From: Kaiparowitsia implicata GSE-PSE-MK54-09C
GTDB taxonomy: Bacteria; Cyanobacteriota; Cyanobacteriia; Elainellales; Elainellaceae
DNA: 64,000 nucleotides
NCBI GenBank assembly: GCA_019359435.1
Contig: JAHHHI010000079.1
Span: 1-64,000, forward strand
Direction of reading: 5' to 3'
The number at the start of each line of letters is the position of its first letter. Position 1 is the stretch's first letter. Both the position numbers and the translations under genes were made by a program. This document shows, in pieces, positions 4,814 to 15,724 of this stretch. Below the pieces are notes generated by a model. It was given only the letters and a program-made list of their open reading frames with translations, was not told the origin of the DNA and made no database searches.

Positions 4814-5308
4814 CTAAATTGATAACCCCAGCTGCAGACCAAAGACGCCGTGAATTACTAGCAGCGCTAGTGCCACACTCCCCACATACGCATGGACGGT
4901 GCGAAAGCCCTTGCCCTGAGAAAACCCGAAGGCGGCAATTAAACTATTGATCCATAGAAGGGCGATCGCCACTGAGCCTGTCCAAAAGTGAGAGCTTTGC
5001 AAAATCGGCTGCTGCTGCATAACCAGCGACAACACTCCGCCGGTATACCCCAGTGCAATGAACAGAAACATCAATGCCGCGATCTTCTTGTGGGCAGTGC
5101 GTTTTTCTGCTGCTAGGGCGTCATCCGTTGCCGTTAGCAACCGTCCTTGCCACCCCGTCACAGCTGCAAAGCTGCCCATCACCAGCACCACAATACCCAT
5201 CATGGCAGGGTGCCCCCAATGCACAATCGGCGCTGGCACATTCAAACTACGAAACCAGGCGGCAAGCGGTTCCAATACATCGCTCAAGCTTGCTCCAAGA
5301 TCAGACAT
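4814..5308 (-). CDS. DUF4079 family membrane protein
   Basis: The 164-residue protein has about four membrane helices, including PAMMGIVVLVMGSFAAVTG, IAALMFLFIALGYTGGVLSL, WTGSVAIALLWINSLIAAFG and VGSVALALLVIHGVFGLQL. Histidines at helix ends (HWGHP, HAY, VIHG) resemble haem- or metal-ligating positions in cytochrome-b561-like bundles. DUF4079 proteins are typical of oxygenic phototrophs and have no settled function. The ATG at 5308 is chosen because GGAG precedes it; a longer in-frame reading from 5335 lacks such a site. Confidence 0.8.
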   Translation of the reverse strand: MSDLGASLSDVLEPLAAWFRSLNVPAPIVHWGHPAMMGIVVLVMGSFAAVTGWQGRLLTATDDALAAEKRTAHKKIAALMFLFIALGYTGGVLSLVMQQQPILQSSHFWTGSVAIALLWINSLIAAFGFSQGKGFRTVHAYVGSVALALLVIHGVFGLQLGLSI

Positions 5309-5429
5309 TGTGGTCTCCTTAATCTTTAGCCACATTCTTAAAAAATGTTAAGCCCATTGTAATGCTGTTTCTCTTCAAAGGCAGTAGTCGGTGCGCGTTA
5401 CGGCATATAAGCCTGAGCCAAATAGATGT

Positions 5430-5648: not shown

Positions 5649-6039
5649 GGGGCTGTACCGGTTTCGACGTTTTGGCGAACACTACTTTATGATTCAGGCC
5701 GAGAGCGAGCTACCTCTCGAAAATCAATGGCTCAAACAAAACGTAACTGCGAACAACATCGTTCCTTTTGCTCGTAAGCGCGTGGCTGTAGCTGCCGCCT
5801 AACAACCTCTTTTAGGTTCGAGCGTCTGCGGTTTGACTCCGTTAAGGATTGCAGACTTAAACCCCAACGGATGCTCTAGTACACTGCCTCTGGTCGGTTG
5901 CTAGCTAAGACATCACTAGAGAAGCCCGCCGACGGGGATAAGCGTCGGTTCCCGCTTTGAGGATCAGAGAAGCTAAGCCTGTGAACGAGTGAAGTACTAA
6001 TACCCAGGGCGGACAGGAGTTCGACTCTCCTCAGCTCCA
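5649..6039 (+). ncRNA. ssrA: Transfer-messenger RNA (tmRNA)
   Basis: tmRNA rescues stalled ribosomes and tags the nascent protein for proteolysis. The 5' end GGGGCUGUACCGGUUUCGACG and 3' end GGAGUUCGACUCUCCUCAGC form the tRNA-like domain; GGGGCUG pairs with CAGCUCC as acceptor stem, followed by discriminator A at 6039. CCA appears not to be encoded. The resume codon GCG at 5749 opens a 17-codon tag, ANNIVPFARKRVAVAAA, ending in TAA at 5800-5802. The tag shares ANNIVPFARK with other cyanobacteria and ends in the AA degron. The molecule is one-piece and not permuted. Confidence 0.97.
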
Positions 6040-6043
6040 CTTA

Positions 6044-9470: not shown

Positions 9471-9968
9471 GTGTTTGATTATCTTCCGCCCCTGAATGAG
9501 CATAATTTGCCCTATCCCGATACGATGCACCCAATTGTGGTTCACTTCGTCATTGCGATGGTGCTTTTTGCCTTTTTCTGCGACGTGGTGGGCTACATCA
9601 CACGCAATACCAAGCTCTACGAGGTGAGCTGGTGGAATATGTTTTTTGCCACCATCTCTATCTTTATCGCCATTATTTTTGGACAGGTTGAGGCAGGTCT
9701 GGCAGAGCCCTACGCGGCGGCGGTGTCTACGCTGAACAAGCACACGCTAATTGGCTGGGCGCTGTCGGGTGTGATTACGGCGATTACTGGCTGGCGCTAT
9801 GTGCTGCGATCGCGCGATCCCAAAACGCTCCCGATGGCCTATCTAATGATGGGTGTGCTGCTGGTGGGCATTGTGTCTTACCAGGTGTATTTGGGCGACA
9901 AACTGGTGTGGGTCTATGGCCTGCACACTGTGCCTGTGGTTGAGGCTGTTCGGGAAGGAGCGCTGTAA
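9471..9968 (+). CDS. DUF2231 membrane protein, first of pair
   Basis: The 165-residue protein starts with GTG after AGGAGA. It opens with the DUF2231 feature PDTMHPIVVHFVIAMVLFAF (first helix with conserved His), followed by three more membrane helices (FATISIFIAIIFGQVEAG, LIGWALSGVITAITGW, AYLMMGVLLVGIVSYQVY). DUF2231 proteins are four-helix bundles with histidines placed like haem ligands, but their function is not established. The gene overlaps the next DUF2231 gene by one base (TAATG). The pair precedes the oxidase genes, which suggests a role in electron delivery to, or assembly of, that oxidase; this is inference. Confidence 0.85.
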   Translation: MFDYLPPLNEHNLPYPDTMHPIVVHFVIAMVLFAFFCDVVGYITRNTKLYEVSWWNMFFATISIFIAIIFGQVEAGLAEPYAAAVSTLNKHTLIGWALSGVITAITGWRYVLRSRDPKTLPMAYLMMGVLLVGIVSYQVYLGDKLVWVYGLHTVPVVEAVREGAL

Positions 9969-10573
9969 TGAATCCAGAACTTGTCACTCAACTGGGTGAA
10001 GGGCTTGGCAGCAATGGCTTGCCTTACACCATTCCGATCCATCCCAACCTGGTGCATATGACGCTGGGTTTGTTTATTGTGGCGATTGGCTTCGACATTG
10101 TGGGAGTGCTGTTCCCCTTAGAGAAGCCAGTGTTTAAGTTTCTGGCGATCCCAGCAACCCGCACCAACCTGTTTGATGTGGGCTGGTACAACATGGTCGC
10201 CGCTGCAATCATCACTTTTTTTACGGTGGCTGCAGGGTTTTATGAACTGATTCTGGCACAGCCCCTGACAGATGTAACCAGCCCTTGGGGGCTGGCGGCG
10301 ATGGAAACCATGCTATGGCATGGCGTGGGCGGCGTGCTGCTGCTGGCATTGATCGTTGGTATGACGGTGTGGCGAGGCTTTCAGCGATATGTGTGGCGCA
10401 AGGAGCGGGCGCAACAGGTGCAGTGGCTTTATTTGCTAGCAGGCCTGTTTATTTTTGCGCTGATGTTTGCCCACGGCACGTTGGGCGCGCACATGGGAGG
10501 AGAGTTTGGCATTCATGTCACGGCCGATCAATTGCTCGAGATGGGGCAAGATCCCAACACGTTACTGCAGTAA
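9968..10573 (+). CDS. DUF2231 membrane protein, second of pair
   Basis: The 201-residue relative of the upstream protein has the same opening logic (PIHPNLVHMTLGLFIVAIG), two conserved histidines in helix 1 and about four helices. It has a longer hydrophilic C-terminus containing FAHGTLGAHMGGEFG. It is translationally coupled to the first DUF2231 gene. The two probably form a heterodimer in the cytoplasmic or thylakoid membrane. A 281-bp gap separates it from the oxidase subunit II gene, so the oxidase may have its own promoter. The start is set by the TAATG overlap. Confidence 0.85.
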   Translation: MNPELVTQLGEGLGSNGLPYTIPIHPNLVHMTLGLFIVAIGFDIVGVLFPLEKPVFKFLAIPATRTNLFDVGWYNMVAAAIITFFTVAAGFYELILAQPLTDVTSPWGLAAMETMLWHGVGGVLLLALIVGMTVWRGFQRYVWRKERAQQVQWLYLLAGLFIFALMFAHGTLGAHMGGEFGIHVTADQLLEMGQDPNTLLQ

Positions 10574-10854
10574 AGGGTTGGGGGATGGATGCTCCCTGAT
10601 GAACAGCCTACGTTAGCTATCCAGAAGCTATCCAGAGTGAATCTTCTCTTTGCAGTCCATCGGGGCGCGATCGCTTGGATCTAAAGGTATATCTAAGGCA
10701 ACCTGGTTATTTCTGGGAATTCCTTTTATCGTGTTTAGTGGTGTTGGGCATCTGTATCCCGTCCACACCTGACCTAATCTTGCCTATCGGTGTTTCACCT
10801 AATTGACCCCTGGCTAGGCTGCTACATCGAATCGTTTGTCTTAATTAACCCCCA

Positions 10855-11811
10855 ATGAAGACACGCACATTTTTGACATTGGCGATCGCCGCAATTGTCC
10901 TGGCTGCCATTAGCTGGTGGATTGGGCAGATGTCGTATAGCTGGATGCCGCCCGAAGCGTCAATAGAAGCAAAGCTGGTCGATGATCTGTTTAGCCTCTT
11001 GGTGGCGGTTGCCAGCTTCATCTTTTTGGGCGTGACGGGAACGCTGCTCTATTCGGCCGTGTTTTCGCGAGCGGCCAAGTATGACACTAGCGACGGCCCC
11101 CCCATTGAGGGCAACGTGGCGGTGGAAGTAGTGTGGACGGTGATTCCCTTTGTGATCGTCATGGGGATCGCCTTCTATAGCTACCAAATCTATGACCAGA
11201 TGGATGTGCATGGCCCCATGGAGCATCGTCATGCGGCGGTTCCGACAGATGCTGCTGCACCGCAGGTTCCCACTGAGCGCCCTGCCGAAGTTGAAGAAAT
11301 CGAAGTGTTGGCTTGGCAATGGGCTTGGGAGTTTCGCTATCCCAATGCCAACGTGAGCAGCACAGAACTGCACGTGCCGAGCGATCGCCGTATTCGGTTA
11401 GCACTCAAAGCCGATAGCGTGATTCACGGCTTCTACGTTCCCGCCTTTCGTCTAAAGCAAGACATCATTCCCAGAACCGATGCTCAGCTTGAGTTTACGC
11501 CCATTTTAGAAGGCACCTATCGCCTGCGCGATTCTCAATACAGCGGCACCTATTTTGCCGCGATGCAGGCAGATGTAGTGGTGCAATCTCCAGAAGACTA
11601 TGACCAATGGTTGACATTGGCAGCCTCTCAGCCGCCCGCCACGGCCTATAACCAAGCGGTCTATGAGTACGAGCGCGCCGCTAAAAAACCCATCAGCGCG
11701 GGGTGGAAGTCTGTACCCCCCGCTCCAGCTCCGATGGTGAATTATGCTGCCGATCCCCAGCCTGTGAGCCCCCAAGCTGCGATTCCTACACCTGAGGACA
11801 AGCAATCATGA
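10855..11811 (+). CDS. ctaC: ARTO-type terminal oxidase subunit II lacking CuA ligands
   Basis: The 318-residue subunit II has membrane helices at about 6-24, 45-70 and 92-112, then a periplasmic/lumenal cupredoxin domain with the aromatic WQWAWEF at 154-160. In cytochrome c oxidases the CuA site is CxExCGxxHxxM. Here the aligned stretch at 226-237 reads DSQYSGTYFAAM, so both Cys, the Glu and the second His are replaced (D226, Q228, S230, F234). H191 and M237 remain. Loss of CuA marks the cyanobacterial alternative respiratory terminal oxidase, thought to oxidise quinol rather than cytochrome c. The stop overlaps the ctaD start by four bases (ATGA). An extended Pro/Ala-rich tail follows residue 255. 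Confidence 0.92.
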   Translation: MKTRTFLTLAIAAIVLAAISWWIGQMSYSWMPPEASIEAKLVDDLFSLLVAVASFIFLGVTGTLLYSAVFSRAAKYDTSDGPPIEGNVAVEVVWTVIPFVIVMGIAFYSYQIYDQMDVHGPMEHRHAAVPTDAAAPQVPTERPAEVEEIEVLAWQWAWEFRYPNANVSSTELHVPSDRRIRLALKADSVIHGFYVPAFRLKQDIIPRTDAQLEFTPILEGTYRLRDSQYSGTYFAAMQADVVVQSPEDYDQWLTLAASQPPATAYNQAVYEYERAAKKPISAGWKSVPPAPAPMVNYAADPQPVSPQAAIPTPEDKQS

Positions 11812-13508
11812 CGACGAATGCTCCAACTGGGGCGATCGCCCCGAATGTTGAGCAACCTGCTCCCGGTGCTCCTAATAACTGGCGGCGGTTCTTTAGCTTT
11901 AGCACTGACCACAAAGTGATCGGGATTCAGTACATTGTCACCGCCTTTCTGTTCTTCTTGATTGGTGGCCTGTTCGCCATGATCATGCGAGGCGAGCTGA
12001 TTACTCCCGACGCCGACTTGGTCGATCGCACCGTCTACAACGCCCTGTTCACTATGCACGGCACGGTGATGCTGTTTATGTGGACGTTTCCCGTGCTGAA
12101 TGGACTGGCGAACTATCTCGTGCCGCTGATGATTGGCGCGCGCGATATGGCCTTCCCTCGGTTGAATGCGATCGCTTTTTGGATGGTGCCCGTATTTGGC
12201 ATCATCCTGATGTCGAGCTTTTTGGTGCCCGGTGGGCCTGCCCAAGCGGGATGGTGGTCATACCCGCCGGTGAGTTTGCAAAACCCAGGCGGCAACCTGG
12301 TCAATGGCCAATTTCTCTGGTTGGTAGCGGTGGCGCTGTCAGGGGTGTCATCCATCATGGGTGCCGTCAACATCGTCACCACCATTATCAAAATGCGCGC
12401 CCCTGGGATGGGCTTTTTTCGGATGCCCGCCTTTGTGTGGACGGTGCTGAGCGCTCAGATGATTCAGCTCTTTGGTCTGCCAGCCCTCACGGCAGGGGCC
12501 GTGATGCTGCTGTTTGACCTAACTACGGGCACCAGCTTCTTTGATCCGATCAAAGGCGGCAGTCCCGTTCTGTATCAGCACTTCTTCTGGTTTTACTCGC
12601 ACCCGGCTGTGTATGTCATCATCCTGCCGGTGTTTGGCATCTTCTCAGAGGTGTTTCCGGTCTATGCCCGCAAGCCGCTGTTTGGCTATAAGGTGGTGGC
12701 GGTGTCGTCGCTGATTATCACGGGCTTGAGCGCAATTGTGTGGGTTCACCACATGTTTGCTAGCGGCACTCCGGGGTGGATGCGAATGCTGTTTATGTTT
12801 TCTACCATGCTGATTTCGGTGCCAACCGGCATCAAGGTATTTGCCTGGGTGGCTACGGTGTGGGGCGGCAAGCTGCGGCTGACGACGCCGATGCTGTTTG
12901 CGTTAGGTGGTCTGGTGATGTTTGTGTTTTCGGGCATTACCGGAATCATGCTGGCGGCTGTCCCCTTTGATATTCACGTCAACAACACCTATTTCGTGGT
13001 GGGTCACTTCCACTACGTGATCTATGGCGCGACGGTGATGGGCGTCTATGCTGCCATCTACCACTGGTTCCCCAAGATGACAGGGCGGATGTATTACGAG
13101 GGATTGGGCAAGCTGCATTTTGCCCTTACCTTTATTGGTGCAAACCTTAACTTTTTCCCGATGCATCCCCTGGGCCTGCAGGGCATGCCGCGCCGCGTCG
13201 CATCCTATGATCCCGAATTTGCCTTTTGGAACGTGATTGCCAGCTTGGGCGGGTTTTTGCTGGGCATGTCGACGCTGCCGTTTATTCTAAACATGGTGAG
13301 TTCATGGGTGCAGGGCAAGCCTGCCCCCGATAATCCCTGGCGCGCTATTGGGTTGGAGTGGTTGGTCTCATCGCCCCCGCCGACAGAGAATTTTGAAGAA
13401 CTCCCCAATGTGATTGCCGAGCCCTATGGCTATGGCAAAGATGAGCCGCTGGTGTCGAATGCGAGCGCCATGATTGGGACAGAATTAGCGCCAACCCCTA
13501 GCCCTTAA
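11808..13508 (+). CDS. ctaD: ARTO-type terminal oxidase subunit I
   Basis: The 566-residue catalytic haem-copper subunit has about 12 membrane helices. The low-spin haem His is in MHGTVMLFMW, the CuB His and cross-linked Tyr are in YSHPAVYVIILP, the two further CuB His are in WVHHMF, and the haem ligands are in VVGHFHYV. The YSHPAV motif, in place of GHPEV, identifies an A2-type oxidase whose D-channel glutamate is replaced by the preceding Tyr/Ser pair. It reduces oxygen to water while pumping protons. It overlaps ctaC by four bases and is 19 bp from ctaE, so the three are one transcription unit. Confidence 0.95.
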   Translation: MTTNAPTGAIAPNVEQPAPGAPNNWRRFFSFSTDHKVIGIQYIVTAFLFFLIGGLFAMIMRGELITPDADLVDRTVYNALFTMHGTVMLFMWTFPVLNGLANYLVPLMIGARDMAFPRLNAIAFWMVPVFGIILMSSFLVPGGPAQAGWWSYPPVSLQNPGGNLVNGQFLWLVAVALSGVSSIMGAVNIVTTIIKMRAPGMGFFRMPAFVWTVLSAQMIQLFGLPALTAGAVMLLFDLTTGTSFFDPIKGGSPVLYQHFFWFYSHPAVYVIILPVFGIFSEVFPVYARKPLFGYKVVAVSSLIITGLSAIVWVHHMFASGTPGWMRMLFMFSTMLISVPTGIKVFAWVATVWGGKLRLTTPMLFALGGLVMFVFSGITGIMLAAVPFDIHVNNTYFVVGHFHYVIYGATVMGVYAAIYHWFPKMTGRMYYEGLGKLHFALTFIGANLNFFPMHPLGLQGMPRRVASYDPEFAFWNVIASLGGFLLGMSTLPFILNMVSSWVQGKPAPDNPWRAIGLEWLVSSPPPTENFEELPNVIAEPYGYGKDEPLVSNASAMIGTELAPTPSP

Positions 13509-13527
13509 CCCCCCTAACAGGAGACCG

Positions 13528-14154
13528 ATGGAGAGTTCTGTGGAATCTCAAACAATGAATTCTCAAGTGGTGGATGGAGCGGCGATCGCCCACACCGCTC
13601 ATGAGCACGACGAAGCCGCCAACAGCATGTTTGGCTTCATTGTGTTTCTGCTGTCAGAAAGCGTAATTTTCCTCAGCTTTTTTGTCGGCTACACCGTCTA
13701 TAAAACCAATGCAGTGAACTGGCTACCCGACGGCGTGTCGGGGCTAGAGGTGCGAGAGCCGTTGATCAACACCCTCGTGCTGGTCTCGAGCAGCTTTGTG
13801 ATTTACGTTGCTGAGCGGTTTCTGCATAAAGACAACCTGTGGGGTTTTCGGGCCTTTTGGCTGCTGACGATGGCCATGGGCAGTTTCTTCCTCTATGGGC
13901 AGGCGGTGGAATGGCGCAGCTTAGAGTTTGGCTTTACCTCTGGGGTGTTTGGCGGCACGTTCTACTTGCTCACTGGATTTCACGGCCTGCATGTGCTGAC
14001 GGGGGTGCTGCTGCAAACGCTGATGCTGGGGCGATCGTTCATTCCGGGTAATTACGACAATGGCGAGTTTGGCGTCGCGGCTACGTCCCTGTTCTGGCAC
14101 TTTGTGGACGTGATTTGGATTATTCTGTTTGTGCTGATTTATGTATGGCAGTGA
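13528..14154 (+). CDS. ctaE: ARTO-type terminal oxidase subunit III
   Basis: The 208-residue subunit III has five membrane helices, beginning MFGFIVFLLSESVIFLSFF, then LINTLVLVSSSFVIYVAE, FWLLTMAMGSFFLYGQ, the conserved FHGLHVLTGV and a final WHFVDVIWIILFVLIYVW. Subunit III stabilises subunit I and is typical of the short cyanobacterial/alphaproteobacterial form. AGGAG lies 5 bp before the ATG. The hydrophilic first 30 residues are His/Glu-rich (HTAHEHDE). Confidence 0.94.
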   Translation: MESSVESQTMNSQVVDGAAIAHTAHEHDEAANSMFGFIVFLLSESVIFLSFFVGYTVYKTNAVNWLPDGVSGLEVREPLINTLVLVSSSFVIYVAERFLHKDNLWGFRAFWLLTMAMGSFFLYGQAVEWRSLEFGFTSGVFGGTFYLLTGFHGLHVLTGVLLQTLMLGRSFIPGNYDNGEFGVAATSLFWHFVDVIWIILFVLIYVWQ

Positions 14155-14206
14155 GTCCGCTGCTTCCTCTGTTCCCCGTTAGTCTTGACCTTGGCAGGTG
14201 TTTCCC

Positions 14207-15724
14207 ATGATTATTGATGACCAGCACTACGACTTCATCATTGTGGGCACGGGCGCGGGGGGCGGCACCCTAGCCCAATCGCTGGCAAAAACGGGCAAGC
14301 GCATCCTAATTTTGGAGCGGGGCGGCGCGATGGCGCTAGAGGAGCAAAACCGCAGCAATGTGGATGTGTTTAAGCGCGATCGCTATCGAGCGCCTGACCA
14401 GTGGTATGACGAGGCGGGGGAACCCTTTTCGCCCCAGACGAACTATGCCATCGGGGGCAACACCAAGATTTATGGTGCGGTGCTGATGCGGCTGCGCGAG
14501 CGCGATTTTGAGTCGGTGGAGCACGAAGAGGGGCGATCGCCCGAGTGGCCGCTGAAGTATCGCGATTTTGAGCCCTACTATTCTCAGGCAGAACAGCTTT
14601 ATCAAGTTCATGGGCAGATGGCAGATGACCCCACTGAACCCGCCCACAGCGCCGACTATCCCTATGAGGCTGTGCCCCATGCGGAGCCCGTCAAGGATGT
14701 GGTCGAGGCGATCGCCCAACAGGGTCTGCATCCCACGCGTCTGCCCCTCAGCCTCACGCGCCAAACGGATGACCCCACGGGCGATTCCCAGGTGTTTGGT
14801 ATTGACCCGGCGGTAAAATCCCCTAACGTTACGCTCAAAACTGATGCGAAGGTCGTTTGCTTGCACACCAACTCTACGGGCAGCGAGGTGCGGGCAGTAG
14901 AAGCGACCATCAACGGCCAGGCGTTCCTCTTTTTTGGGGATGTGATTGTGCTGGCCTGTGGTGCGATCAACTCGGCGGCATTGCTGTTGCGCTCTGCTAG
15001 CGAACTGCACCCCGATGGGTTAGCCAATCGCTCTGGCTTGGTGGGGCGCAACCTGATGAAGGTGACCATGACTTCTATCGTGCAGCTAACCAGTTCTTCA
15101 AATGAGGGCAAGTTTCAGCGCTCGGTGAGCGTCAACGACTTCTACTGGGGCGACGACCAATATCCTTACCCGATGGGGCATATTCAAAACACAGGCGGGC
15201 TGCTGCAAGACGTGATTTTTGCCGAGTCGCCGCCAGTGCTCTCGGTGCTGGCAAAGGTGATGCCGGGGTTTGGGCTGCAGCAACTCGCGGTGCGATCGCT
15301 CGGCTGGTGGGCTCAGACCGAGGCGTTGCCCAATCCCAATAATCGAGTGCGGCTAGAGGGCGACAAGCTGTATTTAGACTACACCCTGAACAATGTGGAA
15401 GCCCATGATCGGCTGGTCTACCGCTGGCTAGAGGTGCTAAAAACAGTCGATAAGGCCGTTAAAAGCTCCGTGCTGCAGCGGGGCGGCATGTATCCGCGAG
15501 GCGAAGTGCCGCTGCAGGTGGTGGCAAACCAGTGCGGCACCTGCCGATTTGGCGAAGACCCGGCCTCTTCGGTGCTTGACCTCAACTGCCGCACCCACGA
15601 TCTCGATAACCTGTATGTGGTGGACAGCAGCTTTTTTCCCTCAAGCGGGGCGGTTGGCCCGGCGCTCACCGTGATTGCTAATGCGCTGCGAGTGGCAAAG
15701 CATCTCAAAGCGCGAGTGGGCTAA
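14207..15724 (+). CDS. GMC-family oxidoreductase with atypical active site
   Basis: The 505-residue flavoprotein begins with a Rossmann FAD motif (FIIVGTGAGGGTLAQSL, about residues 8-24) and has the second GMC block NYAIGGNTKIYGAVLMR near 80. In typical GMC enzymes a His lies three residues before the GTCRMG-like motif and an Asn or His begins the NPxLT motif. Here these regions read ANQCGTCRFGED and AVGPALTVIANALR, so Asn and Gly appear to replace them. It follows ctaE by 52 bp and is probably co-transcribed with the oxidase, suggesting a dehydrogenase or electron-transfer partner feeding quinone; this is inference. GTG at 14198 is an alternative start; ATG at 14207 has AGG upstream at suitable spacing. 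Confidence 0.85.
   Translation: MIIDDQHYDFIIVGTGAGGGTLAQSLAKTGKRILILERGGAMALEEQNRSNVDVFKRDRYRAPDQWYDEAGEPFSPQTNYAIGGNTKIYGAVLMRLRERDFESVEHEEGRSPEWPLKYRDFEPYYSQAEQLYQVHGQMADDPTEPAHSADYPYEAVPHAEPVKDVVEAIAQQGLHPTRLPLSLTRQTDDPTGDSQVFGIDPAVKSPNVTLKTDAKVVCLHTNSTGSEVRAVEATINGQAFLFFGDVIVLACGAINSAALLLRSASELHPDGLANRSGLVGRNLMKVTMTSIVQLTSSSNEGKFQRSVSVNDFYWGDDQYPYPMGHIQNTGGLLQDVIFAESPPVLSVLAKVMPGFGLQQLAVRSLGWWAQTEALPNPNNRVRLEGDKLYLDYTLNNVEAHDRLVYRWLEVLKTVDKAVKSSVLQRGGMYPRGEVPLQVVANQCGTCRFGEDPASSVLDLNCRTHDLDNLYVVDSSFFPSSGAVGPALTVIANALRVAKHLKARVG

Follow-up and report, generated by a model that had tools for sequence, protein, structure and literature searches.

An operon for a CuA-less oxidase

The six-gene operon analyzed here encodes a terminal oxidase of the cyanobacterium Kaiparowitsia implicata GSE-PSE-MK54-09C and lies at positions 9471-15724 of a 64,000-nucleotide stretch (contig JAHHHI010000079.1, positions 1 to 64,000; hereafter the window). 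Open reading frames (ORFs) and Pfam matches give the gene order DUF2231-DUF2231-ctaC2-ctaD2-ctaE2-GMC, all on the + strand, and confirm what an earlier note had read from the DNA, namely an operon in which an oxidase without a CuA center is accompanied by a pair of DUF2231 genes and a GMC-family gene. The first two genes, DUFa (9471..9968, +) and DUFb (9968..10573, +), overlap by one base (9968) and encode four-helix DUF2231 membrane proteins (PF09990; E 1.3e-39 and 1.2e-38; profile scores of 135.9 and 132.7 bits against a gathering score of 26.4; AlphaFold pLDDT 85.6 and 84.0, respectively). A 281-bp gap (10574-10854), as previously given, separates them from ctaC2 (10855..11811, +; Pfam COX2_TM and COX2), encoding subunit II, which overlaps by 4 bases with ctaD2 (11808..13508, +; Pfam COX1), encoding subunit I; ctaE2 (13528..14154, +; Pfam COX3, E 1.9e-29) encodes subunit III. 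The last gene, GMC-A (14198..15724, +; Pfam GMC_oxred_N/C), encodes an FAD-binding protein and likely starts at ATG 14207. With that start, which a relative (L133) favors, the 52-bp gap reported between ctaE2 and GMC-A stands, while from GTG 14198 it is 43 bp.

When aligned to subunit II of PDB 2yev, CtaC2 has lost both Cys, the Glu and one His of the CuA site, in agreement with the earlier note. The former CuA loop (residues 226-237, 11530..11565, +; delimited by translation, family columns and CuA-keeping sisters) is DSQYSGTYFAAM, versus CAELCGASHARM in 2yev; the CuA-site residues H191 and M237 are still present. In an alignment of 82 subunit II sequences (81 from alternative respiratory terminal oxidases [ARTO] plus the other oxidase of the window genome), both Cys and the second His are lost in 81/81 ARTO rows, window included. 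The loss of Glu is not family-wide, with E at position 228 in 23/81 ARTO rows, and position 237 is N in 38/81. Subunit I is, as had been noted, of the A2 type (YSHPAV at CtaD2 263-268) with its haem and CuB His kept; the corresponding His, at CyoB positions 106, 284, 333, 334, 419 and 421, are present in 70/70 ARTO subunits I. The ARTO assignment is upheld by a subunit II that has lost its CuA ligands and a subunit I that has kept its haem and CuB His, and by these residues the window oxidase is a CuA-less type-1 ARTO.

CyoB R71, D75, H98 and Q101, which we take to be the quinol-site positions of cytochrome bo3, were also sought, and none is kept in 70/70 ARTO subunits I, CtaD2 among them. Both familiar sites of electron entry, CuA and the bo3 quinol site, are thus absent from ARTO. 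Besides ctaD2, the window genome carries a single COX1 gene (L002), and the subunit II there keeps CuA. Among 90 sequences in a subunit I tree, the nearest non-ARTO oxidases are those of loci L131 and L143, which keep CuA (CAELCGAYHGAM) and have no DUF2231 pair; their genomes (G002 and G172) have one DUF2231 match each. Both loci also keep the residues HD, presumably near the Mg site, where ARTO has N-N.

Conservation of the DUF2231 pair and the GMC gene

Locus counts below refer to the best 80 of 174 relatives (L003-L082) found by scanning genome contigs with CtaC2, and genome counts to 292 genomes of the cyanobacterial phylum, in which a CtaC2 match of at least 235 bits was called ARTO (70/292 genomes). 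The DUF2231 pair is directly upstream of ctaC2 in 72 of the 78 loci having at least 1.5 kb of upstream sequence; it is ~4 kb upstream in L072 and L081, and DUFb alone was called in L080. A same-strand GMC gene follows ctaE2 in 55 of the 66 loci that have ctaE2 and at least 1.7 kb downstream, with a spacing of ~0.9 kb in six loci and 2.7 kb in L007; the 11 loci lacking it are L011, L032, L019, L020, L022, L047, L050, L048, L072, L078 and L081. Thus the comparison of neighbors across genomes, which the earlier note had proposed, finds DUF2231 and GMC genes to be conserved neighbors of CuA-less oxidases across cyanobacteria, and this conservation in relatives excludes chance as the origin of the context.

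The same association is seen genome-wide. Two or more DUF2231 genes occur in 70/70 ARTO genomes versus 3/222 ARTO-less genomes (Fisher p 1.6e-64, a value that overstates independence because the genomes are related). Where ARTO is present in two or three copies (nine genomes), the DUF2231 genes number 4 to 7, and the only DUF2231 genes of the window genome are the two in this operon. The pair can also be positioned far from ctaC2 (G076). The operon-type GMC (GMC-A) occurs in 32/292 genomes, all 32 with ARTO; in 31 of these its start is 2.3-5.2 kb downstream of the ctaC2 gene, with contig and strand shared, whereas in the remaining genome (G195) the operon is split at contig ends (L117, L118). 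Of 35 genomes with a full-length GMC match, three (G111, G203 and G167) have a non-operon paralogue and were left out of this count, as were G133 and G229, which have GMC fragments only. G133 has no ARTO match; at L151 3087-3425 it carries DUFa residues 5-20 (16 residues, 87.5% identical), 18 bp and GMC residues 411-503, a remnant that looks like the scar of a six-gene unit removed by a single deletion. In G229 (L150), a C-terminal GMC fragment is all that remains.

Residues and fold of the DUF2231 proteins

Each DUF2231 protein has four invariant His, which are H20, H25, H91 and H152 in DUFa (76/76 rows) and H25, H30, H118 and H183 in DUFb (77/77 rows, one of which resembles DUFa). By the helix limits of the DUFa model, H20 and H25 are at the start of transmembrane helix 1 (TM1), H91 is near the start of TM3 and H152 is just past the end of TM4; the DUFb residues follow the same pattern. 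The loops between TM1 and TM2 and between TM3 and TM4 are positive family-wide (mean K+R of 1.9 and 3.6 in DUFa, 3.6 and 5.1 in DUFb), with a mean K+R of 0.25-1.5 at the opposite ends of the proteins, so the His end is predicted to be on the outer face. Residues so placed could form a site for haem or quinol at that face.

Structural comparison was uninformative as to function. Most VIA-align matches are to four-helix bundles of a generic kind (de novo designs, apoE, COX3), with top Z scores of 15.3 for DUFa and 12.4 for DUFb. DUFb aligns with cytochrome b6 (Z 11.4, rmsd 3.4, 130 aligned residues) and b561 (Z 10.0, rmsd 3.9, 138 aligned), both within the range of unrelated helical bundles; the matches to cytochrome b6, b561, COX3 and bo3 subunit III were not used as evidence. 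Against PDB sequences the DUFa profile had no match, and the DUFb profile a single one, to a stretch of cytochrome oxidase subunit I (E 0.094).

A predicted outer-face His cluster would also fit a module whose main task is to reduce an acceptor at the outer face, for instance Fe(III), the pair being a b561/STEAP-like reductase and the oxidase its partner. PMC7982531 cites the reduction of dissolved Fe(III) via ARTO in Synechocystis, and weak Foldseek matches of the pair include Dcytb and STEAP1. However, those matches have E values of ~0.5 to 2, which mean little for helical bundles, and the pair also occurs with a cbb3-like oxidase (described below), and O2 reduction accounts for both associations; we regard Fe(III) reduction as the main function as quite improbable.

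Loss of the catalytic dyad in the operon GMC protein

GMC-A passes the Pfam cut-offs for PF00732 and PF05199, and its FAD motif (G17, G19, G22 and E40) is at least 97% conserved (56 rows). Its best solved sequence relatives are the GMC large subunits of fructose/glucose dehydrogenases (PDB 8xcm, 6a2u). While these enzymes have the catalytic His and Asn, GMC-A of the window has N444 (codon 15527..15529, +), aligned to the position where GMC enzymes have their catalytic His (residue H1147 of the fructose dehydrogenase entries), and G487 (codon 15656..15658, +), which alignments and family columns place at the conserved Asn. Among 82 operon-type GMC rows, window included, the His is present in 23, the Asn in 1 and both in none, as against 14/14 for His and 13/13 readable for Asn in non-operon paralogues. 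A Cys-rich loop (of the form CIRCDxxDGxPC) is found in 14/14 non-operon paralogues and is missing from 78/82 operon-type rows. The four operon GMCs that retain it (L018, L025, L034 and L036) have N and S in place of the dyad; this suggests, from the sequences, that the dyad was lost before the Cys loop, with these four as a possible intermediate state.

Some non-operon paralogues adjoin a gene for a type II NADH dehydrogenase (NDH-2; L141) or are located 0.5-8.3 kb from ARTO (L115, L126 and L127). A plausible path to GMC-A is the recruitment of a dehydrogenase of the non-operon type, followed by loss of its chemistry. Separately, a non-operon GMC occurs within ~1 kb of the NDH-2 type considered in the next section, not adjacent to an ARTO, at three places (L141 4101-7869; G191:C1:575007-578801; G024:C107:76648-80276), and in L058, L077 and L130 (picocyanobacterial-type) a second GMC of the intact type is ~2.7 kb downstream of the operon GMC.

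That GMC-A is an active alcohol/sugar dehydrogenase feeding plastoquinone, as its family membership and kept FAD motifs would allow, seems rather unlikely. The 23 operon-type rows that retain His and the position of GMC-A, which is the one taken by NDH-2 in L124 and L126, are in its favor, but not one of the 82 operon GMCs combines the His and Asn that the readable paralogues all have, and nearly all have lost the Cys loop as well. The role of an ordinary GMC dehydrogenase is therefore doubtful.

NDH-2 as an alternative flavoprotein partner

Some ARTO loci without GMC-A have, within or near them, an NDH-2 of a particular type (the linked type). The protein of this type from the cbb3-like locus L149 matches solved NDH-2 structures (YjlD, 1.4e-36; 4nwz, 7.1e-34; rotenone-insensitive NADH-ubiquinone oxidoreductase, 2.9e-18). 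At the ARTO loci, the gene of the linked type precedes DUFa in L072, L081, L122 and L129 and follows ctaE2, i.e., takes the GMC position, in L124 and L126; it is divergent in L128, convergent in L048, and 4 kb upstream on the opposite strand in L115. In L175 and L176 it adjoins a detached DUF2231 pair. In one GMC-A locus, L138, the gene preceding DUFa is NDH-2-like but of another type (96 bits).

In the subunit I tree, clade II has linked NDH-2 in 8/10 rows (7/8 genomes without duplicates), and GMC-A characterizes clade I, where it has been lost in places. At the base of the latter clade, L048 has NDH-2. A single swap from NDH-2 to GMC-A is no more than suggested, as support at the node above L048 is low (0.092). 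The linked NDH-2s cluster apart from the NDH-2-like proteins of the window genome in a midpoint-rooted tree printed without support values, and the latter match the linked type at no more than 34% identity. Across the genomes, the linked type (called at E <= 1e-70) occurs in 22/292, comprising 18 with ARTO and 2 with cbb3 loci, plus G133 and G215; 15 of its 24 places are no more than 15 kb from an ARTO, a DUF2231 pair or cbb3 (distances read by hand). GMC-A and linked NDH-2 do not strictly exclude each other, as four genomes carry both.

The DUF2231 pair beside cbb3-like oxidases

Two genomes, G036 and G111, have the DUF2231 pair and no ARTO; their gene order is CcoN-CcoO-DUFa-DUFb-NDH-2. COX1 and FixO Pfam matches are present in both of these cbb3-like loci, and the G111 proteins score best with the NCBIfam models for ccoN and cbb3 subunit II, in both cases below cut-offs, indicating divergent proteins. 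CcoP was not recognized among the ORFs listed at the two loci. All eight invariant His of the pair (four in DUFa, four in DUFb) are kept in both. The DUFb of these loci (L148 9008-9922, -; L149 3748-4671, +) has a C-terminal extension of ~100 residues that is missing from ARTO DUFb. CcoO-like matches occur in 18/292 genomes, and among eight such loci with flanking sequence (L148, L149 and L168-L173), DUF2231 or NDH-2 genes were found only in L148 and L149. The third ARTO-less genome with two DUF2231 genes, G062, has genes of a different type, around which the listed ORFs include no oxidase gene; this description also fits the tandem DUF2231 genes at L132 7180-8341 (-).

In sum, the pair is coupled to oxidases that lack CuA, is missing from the sister loci that keep it, and in two genomes goes with a cbb3-like oxidase. 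Because it stands beside both ARTO and a cbb3-like oxidase, with an NDH-2 or GMC neighbor, it serves two oxidase types, next to a flavoprotein that can be either NDH-2 or GMC.

An association with two oxidase types would also be expected if the pair were an assembly or haem/CuB-insertion factor for ARTO and the cbb3-like oxidase, outside the electron path. The strict co-occurrence would look identical, and genes that can be distant from ctaC2 (as in G076) fit such a factor. In contrast, the CuA-keeping oxidase of the window genome has no DUF2231 gene beside it and the sister loci L131 and L143 lack the pair, whose distribution follows the loss of CuA and the presence of NDH-2 genes and not haem-copper oxidases as a whole. 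We consider an assembly factor unlikely, yet deserving of serious attention.

A proposed route of electron entry

We give about an even chance to the reading that the window holds a type-1 ARTO operon in which the DUF2231 pair replaced the lost entry through CuA and cytochrome c. The pair is a candidate for this role because CuA and the bo3 quinol site are missing and each protein has four invariant His on its predicted outer face. In this reading a cofactor would be bound by each DUF2231 protein; the simplest choice is a haem b with two His ligands (bis-His), placed between TM1 and TM3 and close to the outer (P) face. Plastoquinol would be oxidized by the pair, and its electrons would pass on to subunit I at the low-spin haem. 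The quinone pool would be fed or controlled by a cytoplasmic flavoprotein encoded beside the module, with NDH-2 perhaps the original partner and GMC-A the partner in the window's clade. GMC-A, having kept its FAD motifs and lost its alcohol-oxidizing residues, may accept electrons from another reduced partner; alternatively, it may regulate or assemble the complex. The dehydrogenase-quinone-oxidase module envisaged in the earlier note is thus retained in outline, given the NDH-2 genes in or near clade-II operons and after the pair beside cbb3, although its GMC dehydrogenase component is doubtful.

Tentatively, the proposal can be extended. The DUF2231 pair would then be an unrecognized and portable unit for electron entry. 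As a small quinol dehydrogenase of a cytochrome-b-like kind, it would have taken the place of CuA in an A-type oxidase and also joined a cbb3-type one. Combined with an exchangeable NDH-2 or degenerate GMC, it would make a self-contained chain from NAD(P)H or flavin to oxygen that bypasses cytochrome b6f and cytochrome c.

Several observations weigh against the pair as the electron entry and against a fixed flavoprotein partner. The binding of haem or quinone by DUF2231 proteins is a prediction from their His, Foldseek found no PDB match at E <= 0.001 for either model, and a maturation role would predict the same co-occurrence. No pair was found in the available stretch of 3/80 CtaC2 loci (L037, L065 and L078) despite upstream room, and the pair is not general for cbb3, being present in 2/8 CcoN-CcoO loci with flanking sequence. 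The exclusion between GMC-A and linked NDH-2 among ARTO genomes is only moderate (linked NDH-2 in 4/32 with GMC-A versus 14/38 without, p 0.019), and 24/70 ARTO genomes have neither, so the flavoprotein is either dispensable or supplied elsewhere; 23 of these 24 belong to one family (f6), probably heterocyst-formers.

Two uncharacterized membrane proteins are as constant as ARTO's own subunits and stand also beside a cbb3-like oxidase in two genomes. With these data, the question of how electrons reach ARTO gains named genes and residues to test, and DUF2231, a domain of unknown function, acquires a candidate role. GMC-A provides a case of a dehydrogenase family member with a lost active site inside an oxidase operon.

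Transcription signals and neighboring genes

Scans for transcription signals gave counts near chance for both promoter-like sites (3 versus 4.6 expected) and terminators (11 versus 8.1 expected). These scans place no terminator-like site in the gap from ctaE2 to GMC-A, and one promoter-like site (14185-14214) overlaps the GMC-A start. About 4 kb upstream of the operon, on the opposite strand, is a DUF4079 gene (4814-5335, -; Pfam), and a tmRNA gene with the tag ANNIVPFARKRVAVAAA is at 5649-6040 (+).

Comparison with known systems

Cytochrome bo3 of E. coli, a haem-copper ubiquinol oxidase, likewise has a CuA-less subunit II, and it takes its electrons from quinol. It differs from ARTO in the four CyoB residues given above, which are absent from all 70 ARTO subunits I, and its operon, unlike that of the window, has no DUF2231 gene. 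The cbb3 oxidase (CcoN/CcoO) resembles ARTO in that, in G036 and G111, a homologous DUF2231 pair and NDH-2 come next; it differs in belonging to a separate haem-copper type, one that includes a haem c subunit.

ARTO has been described as a three-subunit, bo3-like quinol oxidase, with further subunits uncertain (PMC6616624). The same source gives the Qox/ARTO operon of Anabaena PCC 7120, named type-1 ARTO, as alr2729-alr2730-coxB3-coxA3-coxC3. This operon shares with the window two ORFs followed by subunits II, I and III, and a CuA-less subunit II; the five-gene part of the context that the earlier note had presented as new was thus already in print. The operon as printed is without a GMC gene, in contrast to that of the window. 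GMC is also missing from five Nostoc/Dolichospermum/Chlorogloeopsis loci (L019, L020, L022, L047 and L050), and is kept in the Scytonema- and Rhizonema-labelled loci L025, L034 and L036. By analogy with Nostoc-type relatives, alr2729 and alr2730 are probably the DUF2231 genes; alr2729 is the gene listed for the NtcA-bound cox3 operon (PMC3898017). Within titles and abstracts of the open-licence literature we found none linking DUF2231, GMC or clustered NDH-2 genes to ARTO, which does not prove their absence; DUF2231 itself is mentioned in one of the papers covered.

In Synechocystis, NdbB, NdbC and the ARTO subunits are located in the plasma membrane (PMC6878006), where NDH-2 and ARTO form a short electron chain in one membrane, much as proposed here, with the difference that the window genome has GMC-A where the linked NDH-2 would be. 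The DUF2231 pair and the flavin protein accompany the CuA-less oxidase in many cyanobacteria and hence may be the replacement electron-input parts of ARTO.

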